Positions 9,710-27,451 of a stretch of DNA of 40,708 nucleotides are shown here, one piece after another; within the stretch, counting starts at the first letter, position 1; every line of letters starts with the position of its first letter. A program made the translations under genes and the position numbers. Source of the DNA: Planctomycetota bacterium. Lineage in GTDB: Bacteria; Planctomycetota; Planctomycetia; Planctomycetales; Planctomycetaceae. Under the pieces are notes generated by a model. That model was not told the origin of the DNA, did no database searches, and saw only the letters and a list, made by a program, of their open reading frames with translations. The stretch is taken from contig QWQG01000028.1 of NCBI GenBank assembly GCA_003670925.1, positions 1 to 40,708 of the forward strand, read 5' to 3'.

Positions 9710-10606
9710 ATGTCTTCCGCTGAACAGTATCTCAAGCCCGAAGTGATTCAGAGCATCGCGCGGCTGGATCTGCGCGCAAAATTTATTGTCGAAGGATTGC
9801 TGTCCGGCCTGCATGCCAGCCCATTTCACGGATTCAGCGTGGAATTCAGCGAACATCGACGATACGAACCCGGAGACGACCCCAAAGATATCGACTGGCA
9901 GGTGTTCGCACGCACAGATCGGATCTACATCAAACGCTATCAGGCCGAAACAAATATCACCGGCTACCTGCTGATCGATTTGTCACGAAGCATGGCGTAC
10001 ACATACCGCCAGACGCTTACAAAATTTGACTACGCAATCTGTCTCGCGGCTGCGATTAGCTATCTCATGATTCATCAACAGGATCCTGTCGGGCTGATGA
10101 CATTTGACGATGAACTCCGAGCCAGTCTGCCCGCACGCAGTCGGCGATCTCATCTGGGGGATATTCTGGCCGTACTTCAACGCTGCAAACCGACGGGAAC
10201 AACAAATATTGGCGGCAACCTGCGCCGCATCGCATCAATGATTCGACAGCGGAGTCTGATGATGCTGATGTCAGATTTGCTCGCAGATCCTGACGAGATT
10301 ATTGAAGCTCTCCGGATGCTGCGTTATCGTGGCCATGACGTCATTCTGTTTCACATTCTCGATGAAGCTGAGGTGACGTTTCCGTTTTCAGGCAGTGTGG
10401 ATCTGTTGGAGCCAGAATCGCTGGATCACGAAATTGTGGACGCGGCTGGGATCCGGGCAGATTATCTTGCCGCTGTCGCTGAATTGCGGGAACGATTCCG
10501 GGCAACATGTGTCAGTATCGGAGCAGACTACGTTCCACTCGACACCAGTATGCCCTTCGACAAGGCGCTGGTGGAATTTTTAACCCAACGCCAGGCAAGG
10601 TTCTGA
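9710..10606 (+). CDS. DUF58 domain protein (MoxR-associated, vWA-like)
   Basis: A 298-residue cytoplasmic DUF58 protein. The family signature is clear: EFSEHRRYEPGDDPKDIDW and VFARTDRIYIKRY (residues 45-82), followed by a von Willebrand A-like fold with a degenerate MIDAS (LLIDLSRSM near 93). DUF58 proteins usually work with a MoxR-type AAA+ ATPase and larger vWA/TPR membrane proteins, thought to act as chaperones in complex maturation. No MoxR gene is adjacent here: upstream is a Gfo/Idh gene and 22 bp downstream is an M3 peptidase. The ATG has no strong ribosome-binding site, but the motif begins close enough that no upstream start is needed. Confidence 0.92.
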   Translation: MSSAEQYLKPEVIQSIARLDLRAKFIVEGLLSGLHASPFHGFSVEFSEHRRYEPGDDPKDIDWQVFARTDRIYIKRYQAETNITGYLLIDLSRSMAYTYRQTLTKFDYAICLAAAISYLMIHQQDPVGLMTFDDELRASLPARSRRSHLGDILAVLQRCKPTGTTNIGGNLRRIASMIRQRSLMMLMSDLLADPDEIIEALRMLRYRGHDVILFHILDEAEVTFPFSGSVDLLEPESLDHEIVDAAGIRADYLAAVAELRERFRATCVSIGADYVPLDTSMPFDKALVEFLTQRQARF

Positions 10607-10628: not shown

Positions 10629-12809
10629 ATGAAATTTATGTTCCGGGTTGCCACTTTTTTAGCGGTGACAGCTCTCATCAATGCTTACCATGAATGCTCT
10701 GCCGCATCAAAGGAACCGAATACCCTCGTGACTGCTCAATCTTCCGCTGCACCTGATACCCCACTCCCTGCAGACAATCCCTTTGCTGCTCCAAGTCCAC
10801 TGACATTTCACACTCCAGCTTTCGATAAAATCCGCCTCGAACATTATCAGCCGGCATTCATGGCTGGTATGCAGCAGCAGCTCGCGGAAATGGATGCCAT
10901 CGCGGGACAAAGTGACACCCCGACATTCGATAATACGATTGTCGAGCTGGAAAAATCGGGCGGCATTCTGACACGTGTGCGAAACGTGTTTTCAAACATG
11001 ACTTCGGCGGAGAAAACAAAAGACCTGCAGAACATCGAAACTGAACTCGCTCCCTTGCAGGCGGCACATTCAGACAATATTTTGCTGAATCGCAAGCTAT
11101 TTGCTCGGGTCGAAAAACTCTACGAAACCCGCGAGTCACTGGTACTTAACCAAGAACAACGTGAAGTTCTAAAGCAGCACTACGAAAGTTTTGTCCGTGC
11201 CGGTGCAAAATTGGATGAGGCCCAGCAAGCGCGAATTCGAAGCCTCAACGAGCAGCTTTCGAAGCTGGAGACGAAGTTCGAGGAGAACCTGCTGGCTCTG
11301 TCCGAAGAGCGATCGGTCTTCATCGAGCAAGTGTCCGAGCTAGACGGAATGAGCGAAGCAGACATCGCGGCAGCGGCCGAAGGTGCGAAGGCCCGCGGCA
11401 AGGATGGGCAGTACCTCCTCGAAATTACAAATACAACTCGGGTGCCAATTTTGTCATCGCTGAACAATCGCGAGACACGGCGACGCATTTGGGAGGCTTC
11501 CGCGAACCGAGGTTTAGGACGTGAGAGCGGCATCGACAATCGCCCCCTGATCTTGGAGATCGCTCAATTGCGAGCAGAACGCTCGAAGCTCTTGGGATTC
11601 GCAAGTCATGCGGCCTTCAAGTTACAAAATCAGATGGCGGAAGAACCCGCAGCCGCTCGGAAGATGCTGGCGGATCTGATTCCAGGAGTTCTGGAAAAAG
11701 TGCAGAAAGAAGCGCTCGATCTGAAAGCGATGATTACCGAAACCGGCGGCACGCATGAACTTGAACCATGGGATTGGGAATACTACACCGAAAAAGTCCG
11801 CAAGGCTCGCTTTGAAGTCGATGAAGCGGCTGTAAAGCCTTATTTCGAACTCGACAACGTGCTAAAAAACGGCGTTTTCTTCACGATGAACAAACTGTAT
11901 GGCATTGAGTTTCGTGAACGCACGGATTTGCCGATTTACCATCCCGATGTGCGCGTCTTCGATGTTTTCGACAAGGATGGCACGCACTTCGCAATTTACT
12001 ACGTTGACTTTTTCAAACGTGACACAAAACGTGGAGGCGCATGGATGAGCTCCTTTGTGGATCAGTCTCACCTCCTGCACGAGAAGCCAGTCATTGTCAA
12101 TGTGCTGAATATCCCCAAACCGGCCGCGGGGGAACCGGCACTCATTAGCTTTGATAATGTGACGACGATGTTTCACGAAATGGGCCACGCCTTGCACGGC
12201 ATGTTTTCTGACGTGACCTATCCGTCCGTCTCTGGCACAGCGACTCCGCGGGATTTTGTCGAGTTTCCATCCACCTTCGAAGAAGACTGGGCAATTCAAC
12301 CTGCCGTATTAAGCAACTACGCGAAGCACTATAAAACAGGAGAACCGATTCCAAAAGAACTTCTCCACAAGGTCATTCTGGCAACTAAATTCAATCAGGG
12401 CTTTGACACGTTGGAGTATCTCGCAGCAGCCCTTTTGGATCTTGAATGGCATACGCTCACATCGGAAGACATCCCTGCTGATGCGGAAAAATTCGAATCT
12501 GCCGCGCTGCAGAAGTACGGGATTGATTTCGCTCCCGTGCCACCCCGTTATCGAACGGCTTATTTTGCGCATATTTGGTCCGGCGGCTATTCCAGCAGTT
12601 ACTACGCTTATCTGTGGAGTGAAGTCCTTGCTGCTGACGCCTTCGCGTATCTGCAAGAGCATGGCGGATTAACACGCAAAAACGGCCAGCGTTTCCGCGA
12701 CACCATCCTCTCCGTCGGTGGCAGCCGGGAACCCATGGAAGCCTACAAGGAATTTCGGGGAAGCGCACCGACCGTTGAAGCGCTGCTCAAACGGCGTGGC
12801 TTGAAGTAA
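10629..12809 (+). CDS. M3 family metallopeptidase, exported (oligopeptidase A/Dcp-like)
   Basis: A 726-residue zinc peptidase of the M3 (thimet oligopeptidase/peptidyl-dipeptidase Dcp) family. The zinc site is complete: His516-Glu517-x-x-His520 in FHEMGHALHGMF and the third ligand Glu545 in DFVEFPSTFEEDW. The C-terminal YSSSYYAYLWSEVLAADAFA and GGSREPMEAYKEFRG segments match Dcp-type enzymes that trim short peptides. The N-terminus has a signal peptide (KFMFRVATFLAVTALINA, Ala/Ser-rich cleavage region) followed by a Pro/Ala-rich linker, so it probably acts in the periplasm. It starts 22 bp after the DUF58 stop and may share its transcript. Confidence 0.95.
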   Translation: MKFMFRVATFLAVTALINAYHECSAASKEPNTLVTAQSSAAPDTPLPADNPFAAPSPLTFHTPAFDKIRLEHYQPAFMAGMQQQLAEMDAIAGQSDTPTFDNTIVELEKSGGILTRVRNVFSNMTSAEKTKDLQNIETELAPLQAAHSDNILLNRKLFARVEKLYETRESLVLNQEQREVLKQHYESFVRAGAKLDEAQQARIRSLNEQLSKLETKFEENLLALSEERSVFIEQVSELDGMSEADIAAAAEGAKARGKDGQYLLEITNTTRVPILSSLNNRETRRRIWEASANRGLGRESGIDNRPLILEIAQLRAERSKLLGFASHAAFKLQNQMAEEPAAARKMLADLIPGVLEKVQKEALDLKAMITETGGTHELEPWDWEYYTEKVRKARFEVDEAAVKPYFELDNVLKNGVFFTMNKLYGIEFRERTDLPIYHPDVRVFDVFDKDGTHFAIYYVDFFKRDTKRGGAWMSSFVDQSHLLHEKPVIVNVLNIPKPAAGEPALISFDNVTTMFHEMGHALHGMFSDVTYPSVSGTATPRDFVEFPSTFEEDWAIQPAVLSNYAKHYKTGEPIPKELLHKVILATKFNQGFDTLEYLAAALLDLEWHTLTSEDIPADAEKFESAALQKYGIDFAPVPPRYRTAYFAHIWSGGYSSSYYAYLWSEVLAADAFAYLQEHGGLTRKNGQRFRDTILSVGGSREPMEAYKEFRGSAPTVEALLKRRGLK

Positions 12810-13269
12810 TCGGAGGTAATGTGTCGATTGGTTTGCCCTTTTTTGTTTCTGTTGAATTGGCACGCCGCCGACCCGGAGGTGCATTGACGTTCGAAACGTA
12901 AGCAAGTCAAGCTTGACGAGCGGCATGCGATCGTCAGTCGCCCACCCGAAATTCGCTCTTGCATGATGGTATGTTAGCCAAGCACATCTGCCTGCTGTCT
13001 GCATGACACTAAGTCTCGCCTCATGGTGGCAGAATTCATAGCCGCCGAGATGCGGCGTGATAAGATCCGACCTCGGCGGATGTTTTTATATTTCAATGCC
13101 ATGGTTAAACTTCCATCAGGGCAATGTGCGATTGAGAACAGTTATTCGATGCGGACAGAAAAATTGGGGGACAGCCGACTCACTGCGAAAAAGATTGAGT
13201 GGTGCACGATGTGGCGGATTGCTGATAAGCTCACTGACGGGCAATTGCTTTGCGTTTTGAAGGTTGACT
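12810..13269. other. Intergenic region, no credible gene
   Basis: This 460 bp gap lies between the M3 peptidase and the first GTPase. It contains the terminator-like hairpin at 13042-13089, and a GAGCGGCATGCG word near 12919 resembling part of the inverted repeat at 19.2 and 24.4 kb. The 86-codon frame at 13023-13283 overlaps the GTPase start and is not protein-like. Confidence 0.45.
13042..13089 (+). terminator. Rho-independent terminator-like hairpin
   Basis: CCGCCGAG (13042-13049) pairs perfectly with CTCGGCGG (13072-13079) across a 22 nt loop, followed by a run of five T (13083-13087). It lies about 230 bp past the M3 peptidase stop and 180 bp before the first GTPase. The distance is long for the peptidase mRNA, so it may instead end a short untranslated transcript. 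The long loop lowers confidence. Confidence 0.4.
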
Positions 13270-15153
13270 GTGGACGACGCTAAACGAGACGTATTATATA
13301 AGCACTGTGCAACCACAGTTCGAAGTCTGCTTGCTGCGTTGACGCAACTCGAACGTGAGGCTGTGTTGTTGCAGCCTGCGGCGTTAGCGGAACGGGAATG
13401 GTTTGAACTGCTACGCCAAAAGTTGATTCCCCAACTTGGAGAACAAGCGTTTCTGGTCGTTGCTGTTGTCGGTGGAACAAACATCGGCAAGAGTGTCATT
13501 TTCAACCATCTGGCGGGATCGCGTGCCAGCGCCACCAGTCCATTGGCGTCAGGGACAAAACATGCAACCTGCCTTGTGCCCGAAGGATTCAACGCGCAAC
13601 ATGATCTGCAATCCGTCTTTCCCGATTTTGAACTGCACGAATGGTCGGACGCATCTCTGGCGTTAGAAGAATCTGAGACACATCGATTGTTTTGGCGTGT
13701 GGCCAAACAACTACCGCCTTCATTGCTGGTATTGGACACGCCAGACATTGACAGTGATGCGCGCGTCAACTGGGTGCGTGCGGATGCCGTGCGTCGTGCG
13801 GCCGATGTGTTGATTGCCGTGTTGACTCAACAAAAATACAACGACGCCGCTGTGAAGGAATTTTTTCGCAAAGCAGGTGCTGAAGACAAAGCTGTCCTCG
13901 TCGTTTTTAATCAGTGTCTCCTTCCAGAAGACGAACCGTATTGGCCAATCTGGCTGGACACATTTTGCCGCGAAACTCAAATTCAGCCTGATGCCATCTA
14001 TCTGACGCCCAACGATCGCCGAGCGGCCGAAGATCTGCGGCTGCCATTTTTCGAGCGACAGATTGCGAAGGGTGATGCCAAGCAGACACAACCCGCACCT
14101 GACAACACGTCACGTGATCTCGCTGCTGATCTGGCGAAGCTGCGGTTTCCCGAAATCCGAATGAGAACTTTACTCGGTTCATTGCATGAGTTGACGCACC
14201 CGCAGCGCGGCATTCCGGCCTATCTCCGCGAACTACGGATGGCCAGCGAGGATCTAAGTCGCATTGCCACGCGGCTAACAACGGAGAGTGTGGTGCAGGT
14301 TCGCACCTGGCCATCTCCGGGAAATTCTCTGCTGGTCTCGGAAATTCGACAGTGGTGGCACGCCCATCAGGAAGGATGGGCACGCACGATTAATTCGGCC
14401 TACAGTACCGTTGGGAGCGGACTGCTGTGGCCAATCCGAGCGGCACGGCGCGCCTTGCAAGGCGAACCACTGCCGCCCATGGAAGATTATCGCAGACGTG
14501 AATGGCTCGCAGTGCTGGGGGTTGTCGAAGAAATATTCGACAAGCTGCAATGGATGGCAGATTCCGGAAATGACGTTATTCGACCACGCATCGAAGCTGT
14601 CTTGCAGGGTGAGGCCCGGTCCCGGCTCTTGACGTTACTGCGGCAAAAGCACGATGCCCTCGATTTCGAAGCAGAGCTAAAATCTGTCATCGAGCAGGAA
14701 ATGCAGAATCTGCGAGAGACGAAGCCAGACCTCTTTGGAATGTATCGCCAACTCAACAATGTTTCTGCGGCCGTGCGCCCCATGACCAGCGTTATCCTAT
14801 TTTCAATAGGTTTCGGGCCTGCCGGTGAAATCGTGGCACCGTTTCTGGGGCATGCGGCAGCATCTGCAGCGATCCATGTGTTTGCGGATGTTGCTGGCGG
14901 AGCCACGGCTGCACTGGCAGGTGAAGCAGCGGTGTCTAGTGCGGCAAGCTCGGGAACGAGTATGCTGCAGGCATGGTTCCATCGGTTACATTCAGCGTTT
15001 ACCGCACGAAGGGCGAGTTGGCTAACCCAGTTGATTCATTCCGAGTTGCTCGGCACGCTGCCAGAAGATCTGAATGCGGCCACGAGTCTGGCGAAGTCAG
15101 CAGCGTTTATCGAGGTTCAGAAATGCGTATTGAAAATAGAAGGATTGTTGTAA
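13270..15153 (+). CDS. Large P-loop GTPase-like protein A of a tandem pair
   Basis: A 627-residue dynamin/YfjP-like GTPase. I choose the GTG at 13270 because GAAGG lies 6 nt upstream; the TTG two codons earlier abuts that site. The P-loop is GGTNIGKS (about 68-75). The usual G3 DxxG is replaced by DTPDID (about 156-161), followed by a TQQKY motif (about 186-190). The G4 NKxD position is FNQC, lacking the canonical Asp. The C-terminal two thirds are helical with a hydrophobic Gly/Ala-rich stretch (about 500-560) that could contact membrane. The next gene 190 bp on is a second GTPase with the same odd motifs, so the two probably work together. Role unknown. Confidence 0.85.
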   Translation: MDDAKRDVLYKHCATTVRSLLAALTQLEREAVLLQPAALAEREWFELLRQKLIPQLGEQAFLVVAVVGGTNIGKSVIFNHLAGSRASATSPLASGTKHATCLVPEGFNAQHDLQSVFPDFELHEWSDASLALEESETHRLFWRVAKQLPPSLLVLDTPDIDSDARVNWVRADAVRRAADVLIAVLTQQKYNDAAVKEFFRKAGAEDKAVLVVFNQCLLPEDEPYWPIWLDTFCRETQIQPDAIYLTPNDRRAAEDLRLPFFERQIAKGDAKQTQPAPDNTSRDLAADLAKLRFPEIRMRTLLGSLHELTHPQRGIPAYLRELRMASEDLSRIATRLTTESVVQVRTWPSPGNSLLVSEIRQWWHAHQEGWARTINSAYSTVGSGLLWPIRAARRALQGEPLPPMEDYRRREWLAVLGVVEEIFDKLQWMADSGNDVIRPRIEAVLQGEARSRLLTLLRQKHDALDFEAELKSVIEQEMQNLRETKPDLFGMYRQLNNVSAAVRPMTSVILFSIGFGPAGEIVAPFLGHAAASAAIHVFADVAGGATAALAGEAAVSSAASSGTSMLQAWFHRLHSAFTARRASWLTQLIHSELLGTLPEDLNAATSLAKSAAFIEVQKCVLKIEGLL

Positions 15154-15344
15154 CTCGCTCGTTCCCTGTTTACCGCCCCGTCCGCGGATCCCGGTGGATT
15201 GTCGCCAGATTCGCAAGAATTCAGATGTGTCGCTCATTCATAGCTGAATTCTGACGAATCCAGCATCAACGAAACATCTCAAACAAACCCGCGCAAAGTC
15301 TAACGCGGGGCCGCATCCCAAACCGTCCGCAAAGGGCATCGTCC

Positions 15345-17171
15345 ATGTCACTAACACCTGAACTCCAGCAACTCACGATCCTTGCCGAGATCGATGATCT
15401 GGTGCGCGACATCCGCCGTTGGCTTAACGATGCGCCGCCATGGGCACCCGCGCGGAGGAATCGGTCGTTGGTTTCGAAGATTCTAGATCGCGTAACTTGC
15501 TTGCGAATTCGCCTCGAGTCGCCGCTAGTTGTCGCAACCTTTGGAGGTACGGGCACCGGCAAGAGCACGCTCGTCAACGCCTTGATCGGGCAGGAGGCAT
15601 CGAACTCCGGACGACAACGTCCCACGACGACCGTGCCCATTCTGCTGGTACATCCAGATATTGAAACCACTGCACTCGGTTTAGATCTCAGCCAGTTTCA
15701 TGTGAAGAAAATTGATGCTCCCGTGTTACGGGATTTGATTATCATTGACTGTCCAGATCCTGACACCAGCGAAGCAGCCGAATTCGGCAGCAATCTTGCG
15801 AGACTGCGGGCAATTTTGCCTCAATGTGATGTGTTGCTTTACGTTTCGACACAACAAAAATACCGCAGTGCAAGAATTACTGAAGAACTAACGGATGCGG
15901 CAGCTGGCTGCCGTCTCGTATTTGTCCAGACTCATGCAGCACAGGATTCTGACGTCCGTGAAGACTGGCGGAAGAGCCTGGCGCCGGAATATCAGGTTCC
16001 CGATATGTTTTTTGTGGATTCGCGACGAGCGTTGACAGAGCAGGCACAGGGACAACGTCCGTCCGGGGACTTCGGTCGCCTCCTCGAACTGCTGACCAAC
16101 CAATTGGGAACGTCACGGCGCGTGGCTATTCGCCGTGCAAATCTCATTGATCTTTTAGAAGAAGCGTTAAACGTTTGCCGCGCGAACTATGATCGTGAAT
16201 TGCCTGAGATCACGAAACTGCAAGAAATTCTGGATCAACAGCGGAAAAAACTCCGCGACACGCTGACGAATCAGTTGCGTGATGAATTGTTGGTGAACCG
16301 AAATCTGTGGGAACGCCGACTACTGAGCGCAGTCACAAACATCTGGGGTTTCAGCCCGTTCTCAGCGGTGCTCCGACTGTACAATGGGTTGGGAGCGTTT
16401 ATTGCCTCATTCAGTCTGTTCCGCGCTCGTTCCTCAGCTCAAATGGCGTTGATCGGAGCAGTTCAAGGTGCAAGATGGCTCAAGTCACGAGTCGAAGAGC
16501 AGGGAGCGGACTCATCGCTGGAACGACTAGCGTCTTGTGGAATCACGGATCAGCAACTCCAGGAATCGCGGATGGTTGTGTCGGGTTATGTGCATGCAGC
16601 CGGCATCGATGCAGAACAATTCGCCGATCGTCGTGAGCTGCATCATTTGCGTCATCAGGCGGCGACAGTGGAAGGTCAGTTCCTCGGAGATGCGCGACGT
16701 GACATCGACGAACTGATCGAACATCTGGCCCTCCAGAACTGCTCGGCTATGACCAGATATCGCTACGAAATGTTGTTACTCCTGTACCTCGGATTCCTCA
16801 TCGGGCGAATCGGGCACAATTTTTTCTGGAGTTCGTTCCTCGCCCCAATCTTAGGGCAGGCTGATCATCCTGAGCCTTTGCTGACTGTAGATTTTTATAT
16901 CCCGGCAATCATTTTCCTCGTCATGTGGTCCGCGATATTGGTGCTGAGCTATACGTGGCGTTTGCGCCGTGGACTCTCAACGAAAATCCATAAACTCGCG
17001 CAGTCCATGGTCGTGACACGAATTTCTGAAGGGCTATTTCCAGCGCTTGATCATGTTTGTCAGAGCGTCATTAGTGACGATCATCGGCTGACAGAATTGC
17101 GGGAGCGAACCTCCCGCTTTCGCCGGGAACTTGCTGACGCCGTTGGGTTTCTAGGCGGCCAACTTAGATGA
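15345..17171 (+). CDS. Large membrane P-loop GTPase-like protein B of a tandem pair
   Basis: A 608-residue GTPase-like protein. P-loop GGTGTGKS (67-74); switch region RPTTTVP (92-98); G3 replaced by DCPDPD (135-140); a TQQKY motif at 169-173 as in protein A; and QTHAAQD at the G4 position. A helical middle with a coiled coil (about 285-320) is followed by two transmembrane helices (about 475-490 and 517-537) and a basic tail. The arrangement is that of bacterial dynamin-like or YfjP-type GTPases, which act at membranes. The two proteins differ enough to be an old duplication or a heteromeric pair. The start ATG has AAGGG 10 nt upstream. The next gene (TolC type) is convergent, 225 bp away. 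Confidence 0.87.
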   Translation: MSLTPELQQLTILAEIDDLVRDIRRWLNDAPPWAPARRNRSLVSKILDRVTCLRIRLESPLVVATFGGTGTGKSTLVNALIGQEASNSGRQRPTTTVPILLVHPDIETTALGLDLSQFHVKKIDAPVLRDLIIIDCPDPDTSEAAEFGSNLARLRAILPQCDVLLYVSTQQKYRSARITEELTDAAAGCRLVFVQTHAAQDSDVREDWRKSLAPEYQVPDMFFVDSRRALTEQAQGQRPSGDFGRLLELLTNQLGTSRRVAIRRANLIDLLEEALNVCRANYDRELPEITKLQEILDQQRKKLRDTLTNQLRDELLVNRNLWERRLLSAVTNIWGFSPFSAVLRLYNGLGAFIASFSLFRARSSAQMALIGAVQGARWLKSRVEEQGADSSLERLASCGITDQQLQESRMVVSGYVHAAGIDAEQFADRRELHHLRHQAATVEGQFLGDARRDIDELIEHLALQNCSAMTRYRYEMLLLLYLGFLIGRIGHNFFWSSFLAPILGQADHPEPLLTVDFYIPAIIFLVMWSAILVLSYTWRLRRGLSTKIHKLAQSMVVTRISEGLFPALDHVCQSVISDDHRLTELRERTSRFRRELADAVGFLGGQLR

Positions 17172-26397: not shown

Positions 26398-26518
26398 TCT
26401 TTGTCAGATTGTTACCGCGTCGTGATTTCTGACACGGCACGGTTAACAGCTCACGCCGATCGGCTTAAGATGCTGGGTTGATAGATCAGCACGGTGGCAA
26501 TTGATAGAAAGTAAATTC

Positions 26519-27451
26519 ATGCCAATCGAGATTCGTTGTCAGTGCGGAAAGAAACTGAAGGCGCCTGATAAACTTGCCGGACGCATGGTGAATTGTCCCG
26601 GATGCGATGCAAAAATTCATGTTCCATCGCTCATCGCACCAGACGACGATGACTACGACGATGAAGCAATTCAGATGCCATTGCCTTTCGCTGCCAAATC
26701 CGCGTTTGGGACCCCGCCTCAATTTTCGACACCAAGGGGCAACCCACAAGCCACACGGGATGATCAACGCTATTCGCTTCGCGAGTTCGTAGAAGAAACT
26801 GGACAAAAGGACCATGGGGAGGGTTTCTTCGAGCTGGAGAGTCCCTACATGCTGGAGGTCAATCTCAACGGCATGGTCTGGACAAAAATGGGCTCAATGA
26901 TCGCCTATGTCGGCAACATCAAGTTTGTCCGCGAAGGAATTCTCGAAAACGGACTCGGTAAATTTCTTAAGAAAGCTGTCACTGGTGAAGGCACCAAACT
27001 GACAAAGGCGGAAGGCCAGGGACGCCTGTATCTGGCAGATTCAGGCAAACGTATCAGTATCCTCCAGCTGCACAATGAATCGATCTTCGTGAACGGCAAT
27101 GATTTGCTGGCTTTGCAAGAAGATATTCAGTGGGACATCAACATGATGTACAGCATCGCTGGCATGATGGCTGGTGGGCTGTTCAATGTGAAACTCACTG
27201 GTACCGGGATGATCGCCATTACATCACATTTCCAGCCGATGACACTCCGCGTGACACCAGACCAACCTGTCACCACCGACCCCAACGCCACGATCGCGTG
27301 GTCTGGCAATCTTACACCGGAATTCAAAAAAGATATCTCACTCAAGACGTTCTTTGGACGCGGCAGTGGTGAATCGATCCAGATGTTTTTTCGAGGCAAC
27401 GGATTCGTGGTCGTACAACCGTATGAAGAAGTTTATTTTCAGAAGACGTAG
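26519..27451 (+). CDS. AIM24 family protein with N-terminal zinc ribbon
   Basis: A 310-residue protein. The N-terminus is a zinc-ribbon-like CxC-x16-CPGC module (Cys7, Cys9, Cys26, Cys29), followed by an acidic, Pro-rich linker and an AIM24 (DUF124, TRAP-like) beta domain from about residue 90: VWTKMGSMIAYVGNIKF, GQGRLYLADSGKRI, IFVNGNDLLA and FRGNGFVVVQPYEEV. In yeast, AIM24 affects mitochondrial inner-membrane organisation; bacterial members have no settled function. The start is the ATG at 26519, where the zinc ribbon begins. No signal peptide. It sits between gltX and a dehydrogenase in the same orientation, with no clear functional link. Confidence 0.9.
   Translation: MPIEIRCQCGKKLKAPDKLAGRMVNCPGCDAKIHVPSLIAPDDDDYDDEAIQMPLPFAAKSAFGTPPQFSTPRGNPQATRDDQRYSLREFVEETGQKDHGEGFFELESPYMLEVNLNGMVWTKMGSMIAYVGNIKFVREGILENGLGKFLKKAVTGEGTKLTKAEGQGRLYLADSGKRISILQLHNESIFVNGNDLLALQEDIQWDINMMYSIAGMMAGGLFNVKLTGTGMIAITSHFQPMTLRVTPDQPVTTDPNATIAWSGNLTPEFKKDISLKTFFGRGSGESIQMFFRGNGFVVVQPYEEVYFQKT

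Follow-up and report, generated by a model that had tools for sequence, protein, structure and literature searches.

How do bacteria without FtsZ shape or cut their membranes? Planctomycete division without FtsZ is treated as an unsolved question in excerpts of two articles (PMC5147048 and PMC6952346), and a pair of genes from a member of the Planctomycetaceae may bring this question to a single locus. The stretch analyzed here (the window) comprises 40,708 nucleotides of contig QWQG01000028.1 (assembly GCA_003670925.1) and carries two tandem P-loop genes, designated A and B. In this study, we examined what kind of GTPases they encode and what the two might do together. We consider it probable that A and B make up a heteromeric, dynamin-like membrane-remodelling machine with the layout of mitofusins and of the bacterial dynamin BDLP. 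The directly supported parts of this reading are the homology of the GTPase heads, the predicted fold, the hydrophobic segments, the gene order and the co-inheritance of the two genes.

Both genes were found on the forward strand by open reading frame (ORF) calling, in agreement with an earlier note made from the letters of this DNA alone. The first gene, A (13270..15153), encodes a dynamin-like GTPase whose C-terminal part has a hydrophobic segment rich in Gly and Ala. The second, B (15345..17171), encodes a dynamin-like GTPase of 608 residues with a C-terminal pair of hydrophobic helices. The ORF tool placed the start of A at a TTG codon (13264-15153); the GTG codon at 13270 is the likelier start, because close relatives start at that residue.

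The sequence motifs, all on the forward strand, were counted in alignments of near homologues, 46 of A and 61 of B. The G1 motif (Walker A) is intact in both proteins, with the P-loop GxxxxGK(S/T) present in 46/46 and 61/61 homologues. It reads GGTNIGKS in A (residues 70-77, 13471..13494; found in 41 of the 46, with close variants in the remaining five) and GGTGTGKS in B (residues 67-74, 15543..15566; found in 51 of the 61, with GGTGVGKS in 10). At G3, the DxxG motif is replaced by DxPDxD in every homologue of either protein: DTPDIDS in A (residues 158-164, 13735..13755; DTPD(I/V)D in 46/46) and DCPDPDT in B (residues 135-141, 15747..15767; DCPD(P/M)D in 61/61). A TQQKY motif follows 30 residues past G3 in A (residues 188-192, 13825..13839; 46/46), directly past a beta strand of the model (residues 182-187), and 34 residues past it in B (residues 169-173, 15849..15863; 60/61, with SQQKY in the remaining one), such that (T/S)QQKY occurs in all homologues of both. 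Since these motifs are fixed across both homologue sets, their sharing by A and B, which the earlier note had pointed out, is not due to chance. The probable G2 motif of B is RPTT (residues 92-95, 15618..15629; 61/61), and Thr98 of A, invariant in 46/46, may be its counterpart. The earlier note had also claimed that a canonical NKxD is missing; it is, but the G4 site is divergent rather than empty. In A it is occupied by FNQ (residues 215-217, 13906..13914), whose columns are invariant in all 46 homologues. In B it reads THAA in the window's own protein (residues 196-199, 15930..15941) and THAD in most relatives, FVQTHAD being found in 38 of the 61 and variants in the others.

The profiles of A and B match each other across the G domain (E 3e-13), and by this comparison the two are paralogous P-loop GTPase families. 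When 24 G domains of both paralogues from two phyla were aligned, a single Asn and a single Thr were invariant in addition to the P-loop and DxPD. DxPD can thus be regarded as a mark of the family.

To what known family does this head belong? Searches of NCBIfam and of PDB sequences gave only weak matches, mostly near the P-loop of A and B. The Pfam model MMR_HSR1 scored above its cut-off on both proteins (34 bits for A and 28.1 bits for B). With a profile built from 24 diverse G domains of the family, 392 PDB sequences were matched at E 0.1. Among the best 60 of these 392, Era and Der score higher, yet their best stretch is the P-loop region, whereas IniA, mitofusins and SynDLP match most of the G domain. 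The AlphaFold2 models of B (from 61 sequences; predicted local distance difference test score, pLDDT, 84.5; predicted TM-score 0.74) and of A (from 46 sequences; pLDDT 82.4; predicted TM-score 0.74) both have a GTPase head followed by long helices. In these models the head sits on a helical neck and trunk, and the neck is built from both ends of the chain. The best PDB matches of B in Foldseek were BDLP (2j69, E 2.4e-10), the Campylobacter dynamin-like protein pair (5owv) and IniA (6j72), with E values ranging to 9e-9; those of A were BDLP (E 4.4e-8), then mitofusin and other dynamins. With VIA-align, the Z scores of B were 22.8 for Fzo1 (300 residues, 3.5 A), 22.7 for MFN1 and 16.0 for Era; those of A were 24.2 for Fzo1 (334 residues, 4.7 A) and 22.1 for MFN1, the top row for A other than dynamins and EHDs reaching only 13.3. 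The first and last residues aligned to Fzo1 are 1 and 600 in B and 1 and 629 in A; in both models the alignment begins in the N-terminal helices and extends to the C-terminal helix, as in the first helical domain of mitofusins.

It is very improbable that A and B are Era/Der-type GTPases acting on RNA or in ribosome assembly. The MMR_HSR1 scores and the top position of Era and Der in the profile search speak for such an identity. It is countered by the confinement of their best stretch to the P-loop region, by the helical bundles that form the remainder of both models and match mitofusins, and by the hydrophobic segments. We rejected an Era/Der (HSR1) assignment on these grounds: the similarity is centered on the P-loop region, G3 and G4 are non-canonical, and the predicted fold is otherwise dynamin-like. 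A suggestion that the proteins are possibly dynamin-like, made in the earlier note, is in keeping with the predicted folds, which match mitofusins and bacterial dynamins best; neither protein fell into an unrelated characterized GTPase family, mitofusin and BDLP being the best fold match for both.

The hydrophobic segments of the two proteins differ in kind. The two transmembrane helices ascribed to B are visible as two hydrophobic helices over the homologue alignment, which gives mean hydropathies of 1.49 for helix 1 (residues 476-494, 16770..16826; model helix 468-502) and 2.15 for helix 2 (residues 519-537, 16899..16955; model helix 515-559); in the window's B taken alone, only the second exceeds the cut-off of 1.6. 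The hydrophobic C-terminal stretch ascribed to A is also present, in the form of two only moderately hydrophobic stretches at residues ~510-553 (mean hydropathy 1.42 and 1.29). They lie within a Gly/Ala-rich loop (residues 505-562, 14776..14949) of low model confidence (pLDDT below 50). This tip occupies the place that corresponds to the hairpin of B, although the confidence of the tip is very low. On the models, the helices of B may be read as a membrane hairpin and the stretch of A as a tip placed like the paddle of dynamin.

We searched 294 planctomycete genomes, at least 90% complete, at E 1e-6. All profile matches taken together placed A in 60/294 and B in 70/294 genomes, numbers that include some cross-matches between the paralogues. 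Long matches, which by our reading of the match tables are those of at least 439 bits for A and at least 236 bits for B (two B matches being in two pieces), were found in 37/294 genomes for A and 36/294 for B. Both genes occurred in 36 genomes, A alone in one and B alone in none. Of the 37 genomes with either gene, all but one thus hold both; in 22 of the 36 with both, the two are adjacent, with A upstream of B. Within the window's family, Planctomycetaceae, A was present in 33/33 sampled genomes and B in 32/33. Among the 23 other genomes, with weak A matches, a B-profile match lay directly beside the A match in 14. In a set of 59 genomes, the window's and its near relatives, 42 genomes were matched by the A query and 48 by the B query, again with paralogue cross-matches included. 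A scan of a named collection gave 262 relatives of B, and the best 80 of them, which were kept, all carry planctomycete titles (Fuerstiella, Gimesia, Schlesneria, Planctomicrobium and others). A lies directly upstream of B in 49 of these 80 loci, with gaps of up to 543 nucleotides and, in 11 of the 49, a 4-nucleotide overlap; in 10 further loci less than 1.5 kb precedes B, which is too short to judge A. Contigs titled Candidatus Kuenenia stuttgartiensis (L061, L075, L105 and L106) also carry A/B pairs, their B being 51-87% identical to the window's; these titles are probably wrong bin names. Conservation as a pair, which the earlier note had presumed, is therefore seen in the sample; homologues are not usually single and unlinked, since 36 of 37 genomes hold both, 22 of them side by side, and A-B tandems recur in distant families, at loci picked mostly for neighbouring matches.

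Several observations weigh against a paired dynamin-like machine. In gene order, adjacency was not seen in 14 of the 36 genomes with both genes. In four of these (G021, G135, G215 and G235) A and B lie apart on the same contig, so the separation is real; in the other 10, all draft genomes, they are on different contigs, where an assembly break is possible (A of G249 is cut at a contig end). Moreover, in 21 of the 80 named loci A is missing although 3.4 kb or more of sequence precedes B. In structure, the whole-chain Foldseek TM-scores are low (0.15-0.34 by query length), which indicates that the models do not reproduce the positions of the domains. In sequence, neither the dynamin G3 (DxPG) nor the dynamin G4 ((N/T)KxD) is found: DxPD occurs in 46/46 A, 61/61 B and 24/24 aligned G domains, and G4 is FNQ in A and THAD or variants in B. 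Pfam Dynamin_N stays below its cut-off of 27 bits on both proteins (14.9 for A and 25.4 for B), whereas MMR_HSR1 passes; in a genome search, with neighbours in frame, Dynamin_N scored 29.1 bits on B. Because the predicted fold is close to that of mitofusins and BDLP but the canonical G3 and G4 are absent, we class A and B as a dynamin-like variant and file them neither as canonical dynamins nor as DynA/DynB.

In the machine proposed here, A and B would be two subunits, each with a GTPase head borne by a helical neck and trunk. B would be anchored in the cytoplasmic membrane by its C-terminal hairpin of two hydrophobic helices, and A would be a soluble or peripheral partner that contacts the membrane by its Gly/Ala-rich tip; membrane binding by this tip and by the helices of B is what the models suggest. 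On GTP binding the heads would pair, probably one of A with one of B; hydrolysis would swing neck and trunk, and the complex would thereby tether, constrict or fuse membrane. We infer that A and B form a heteromer, hydrolyze GTP despite the altered G3 and G4, and act on membranes. A heteromer is likely because one bacterial dynamin pair is described, in excerpts of PMC6104087, as inactive unless both members are present.

Can neighbouring genes narrow the function? No other neighbour approaches the conservation that A and B have for each other: the next clusters were seen on both strands in 14 loci and on the opposite strand in 13. In the latter 13 (e.g., L085:11926-13497), a gene of ~520 codons directly follows B on the opposite strand, and the one examined had no Pfam match. 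In six Schlesneria-type loci the gene before B belongs to one cluster, whose examined member is a UvrD helicase. At three f3 loci (L142:6190-7140, L144:1893-2906 and L156:6926-7912) a B-like gene is followed by a gene with a CHAD domain in two examined, and in L144 and L156 a DAO oxidoreductase gene precedes the A-like gene. The UvrD, opposite-strand and CHAD neighbours are all local, and no function was inferred from neighbours. Within the window, a DUF58 protein (9710-10606) and an M3 oligopeptidase (10629-12809) are encoded upstream of the pair, outside the conserved neighbour clusters; farther on, an AIM24-family protein (26501-27451) adjoins a gene of the glutamyl/glutaminyl-tRNA synthetase type. 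A role as a defence system was considered and rejected, as the PADLOC matches are weak (Leo proteins and mad8, at most 23.3 bits) and the neighbours are not conserved.

Does the pair extend beyond the near relatives of the window? We inspected 20 regions from other planctomycete families and found both genes in 18. This set is biased towards tandems, which counts against the reading of a pair, because the regions were mostly picked where two matches lay close together. The second gene scored better with the B profile in 18/18 loci and the first gene better with the A profile in 16/18, the exceptions being L154 and L157. An exact 4-nucleotide ORF overlap was present in four of the 18. In these distant families TQQKY is mostly lost, and the final Asp of DxPDxD is absent from several genes. 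In a tree of 70 G domains, from which L160 and L161 were excluded as only one gene had been found there, the first genes stand almost fully apart from the second, the labels changing 2 times versus ~23 in shuffles. Four first genes (L153, L154, L155 and L157, of families f26, f59, f44 and f7) are not part of the main first group, and support is modest around the middle of the tree. Two f2 genomes carry different versions of the pair: L158 groups with f1 and f9, and L179 with f3 and f4. In each case both genes share the same grouping in the tree, as expected of a unit, the grouping of the second gene of L179 being weakly supported.

Other GTPases were noted in the same sample. Nine genomes of f39, f60, f65 and f67 (G123, G198, G183, G174, G156, G315, G290, G327 and G212) have a short B-profile match over the P-loop half of ORFs of 576-605 residues; they are without an A match, and these ORFs are possibly single GTPases of another kind. 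G235 (L178:2219-4807) and, by the search table, also G215 have an extra dynamin-like ORF of ~862 residues, with several hydrophobic segments before a P-loop at residue 616.

Outside the phylum, relatives were sought by tblastn of plasmid records, in which Nonomuraea was the only actinobacterial source matched. An 11.85-Mb record of Nonomuraea gerenzanensis, filed as a plasmid and evidently a chromosome, gave two neighbouring matches, clear for B (E 2e-6) and marginal for A (E 0.5). This tandem (L141) encodes an 897-residue protein without predicted membrane segments and then a 540-residue protein with two, with a 4-nucleotide overlap between the genes; it is flanked by a TP_methylase/NAD_binding_7 gene (siroheme-synthase-like) and an SSB gene. 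The G3 motif is DTPDIDS in the first protein and DLPDHDS in the second, which also has DPQKYAD. Profile comparisons of the Nonomuraea proteins with A and B gave E values from 9e-11 to 7e-15. The earlier note had likened A and B to actinobacterial YfjP-type GTPases with a DLPDHD motif, and the likeness to a homologous tandem whose second protein has DLPDHDS bears it out; no literature match for YfjP with actinobacteria was found in the open-licence literature. Dynamin_N passes on the first Nonomuraea gene (43.9 bits) and gives 26.9 bits on the second, versus a cut-off of 27. In the tree, the Nonomuraea genes fall on matching A and B sides, but on long branches and with modest support; the second falls in with the DUF697 outgroup, a placement marked by the program as possibly false. 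Both the A and the B profile score higher with the first Nonomuraea gene; given this and the long branches, a clean one-to-one orthology was rejected.

The recurrence of the tandem in an actinobacterium bears on a narrower form of the dynamin-like reading, in which the pair would act in cell division by constricting or severing the cytoplasmic membrane at the bud neck in cells without FtsZ. We regard this form as unlikely. The Nonomuraea tandem has the same layout as A and B, and products of Streptomyces dynA-dynB are reported, in excerpts, to stabilize Z rings. The sampled genomes of the window's family carry the pair almost without exception. No tubulin/FtsZ match (PF00091) was found in the window's genome or family, in a search in which 13 of 14 control genomes were positive; matches were confined to 3/294 planctomycete genomes, all of another family, f61 (G166, G185 and G207; 37-40 bits versus a cut-off of 33, in ORFs of 445-460 residues). 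With no PF00091 match in the window's family, the role of the pair is exercised there without detectable FtsZ. Excerpts of PMC6952346, PMC5147048 and PMC4164004 describe planctomycetes as devoid of FtsZ and the mechanism of their budding as unknown, the first terming it entirely unknown. Other observations oppose a division role. DynA and DynB act on FtsZ, which was not detected in the window's family; all 9 sampled genomes of f5, a family of the same class, are without the pair though also without an FtsZ match; no shared division gene lies beside the pair in the neighbour clusters, of which only the main ones were identified; and a knockout of the Campylobacter dynamin pair is described in excerpts of PMC6104087 as being without obvious division defect.

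That last source also bears on another possibility, which we rate as somewhat unlikely: that A and B serve as dynamins in membrane repair or under envelope stress, a role proposed for Bacillus subtilis DynA and Campylobacter Cj-DLP1/2. Repair roles of paired bacterial dynamins are speculated upon in the excerpts of PMC6104087, the fold of A and B matches those dynamins, and the gene context is not fixed. Against it, the presence of A in all 33 sampled family genomes is, in our judgement, more than expected of an accessory stress gene, and no neighbouring stress gene was identified among the main neighbour clusters.

Large invaginations of the cytoplasmic membrane are a planctomycete trait. A function of the pair in shaping them, or in macromolecule uptake, appears doubtful: the predicted fold is that of membrane remodelers, but families of the same class without the pair exist.

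The genomes without the pair led to a different GTPase tandem. In the sample of 294, 11 genomes of the same class (nine of them f5) are without A and B matches and also without an FtsZ match, and 10 of these 11 have two strong DUF697 GTPase genes. No DUF697 match above 34 bits was found in any of the 37 genomes with long A matches. A strict mutual exclusion of the DUF697 tandem and A/B is refuted by G046 and G050, which carry both kinds; and because f5 is one clade, the contrast is phylogenetically confounded. The DUF697 tandem might serve in place of A/B in genomes without it. Like A/B, the DUF697 tandems of other planctomycete families consist of two adjacent P-loop GTPases with hydrophobic segments; unlike A/B, they have a DTPG G3 and a C-terminal DUF697 (PF05128). 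Pfam hits of A and B up to E 1 do not include PF05128, which also has no match in the window's genome. Pairs of this different type, with DTPG and hydrophobic segments, were seen in f5, f10 and some f2 genomes (L162:2540-5540, with DUF697 identified in L162; L163-L168; L177). In the f2 genomes L165 and L166 an extra ORF sits between the two GTPases; its GGSSSGSA stretch is presumably amidase-like.

Taken to its full extent, this line of thought would make A/B the engine that constricts or cuts the membrane in Planctomycetaceae budding, independent of FtsZ, with a DxPD head and an ancestry shared with the actinobacterial pairs, while other families of the class would use the DUF697 tandem for the same job. 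We hold this as improbable speculation. For the dynamin-like machine itself, the pair is a concrete candidate for how planctomycetes without FtsZ shape or cut membranes. Its presence in nearly all sampled genomes of a family without FtsZ, and its kinship to a tandem of the Streptomyces septum type, make it a small, named target. The DxPD head also defines a dynamin-like variant. Bacterial dynamin pairs are already known; we found no description of the DxPD kind in planctomycetes without FtsZ. No paper on the planctomycete A/B pair was found in the open-licence literature, which leaves subscription journals mostly outside its coverage, and the word dynamin was not found in the search listing of PMC5147048 or PMC6952346.

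How, then, does the pair compare with known systems? The mitofusins (Fzo1, MFN1 and MFN2) are the best fold match of both models, aligned from the N-terminal helices to the last helix, and their two membrane helices between helical segments resemble those of B. Unlike mitofusins, A and B are two separate bacterial genes with different G3 and G4 motifs, and identity in the model alignments is 11-16%. Nostoc BDLP1 with its neighbour, Campylobacter Cj-DLP1/2, mycobacterial IniA and LeoABC have the dynamin fold in common with A/B, and paired genes are described among bacterial dynamin-like proteins in excerpts of PMC6104087. The planctomycete pair differs from these in its DxPD variant and in its weak sequence similarity to them: LeoA, LeoBC and LeoC models gave no full-length match, only short P-loop stretches, the best being the PADLOC LeoA match of 23.3 bits at residues 57-94 of B. 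The closest likeness in organization is to Streptomyces venezuelae DynA/DynB (vnz_12110/vnz_12105). Excerpts of PMC6428758 describe dynA-dynB as an operon, and those of PMC8748795 give DynB two membrane segments and have DynA/DynB stabilize FtsZ rings in Streptomyces. A/B has the same two-gene order with the membrane segments in the second protein, as judged from gene order and hydropathy; the likeness is one of layout and published description, the sequence comparison having been made with the Nonomuraea pair only. Orthology of A/B to DynA/DynB is a lead. The known function of DynA/DynB needs FtsZ, whereas the planctomycete A/B pair resides in a family whose genomes have no detectable FtsZ.

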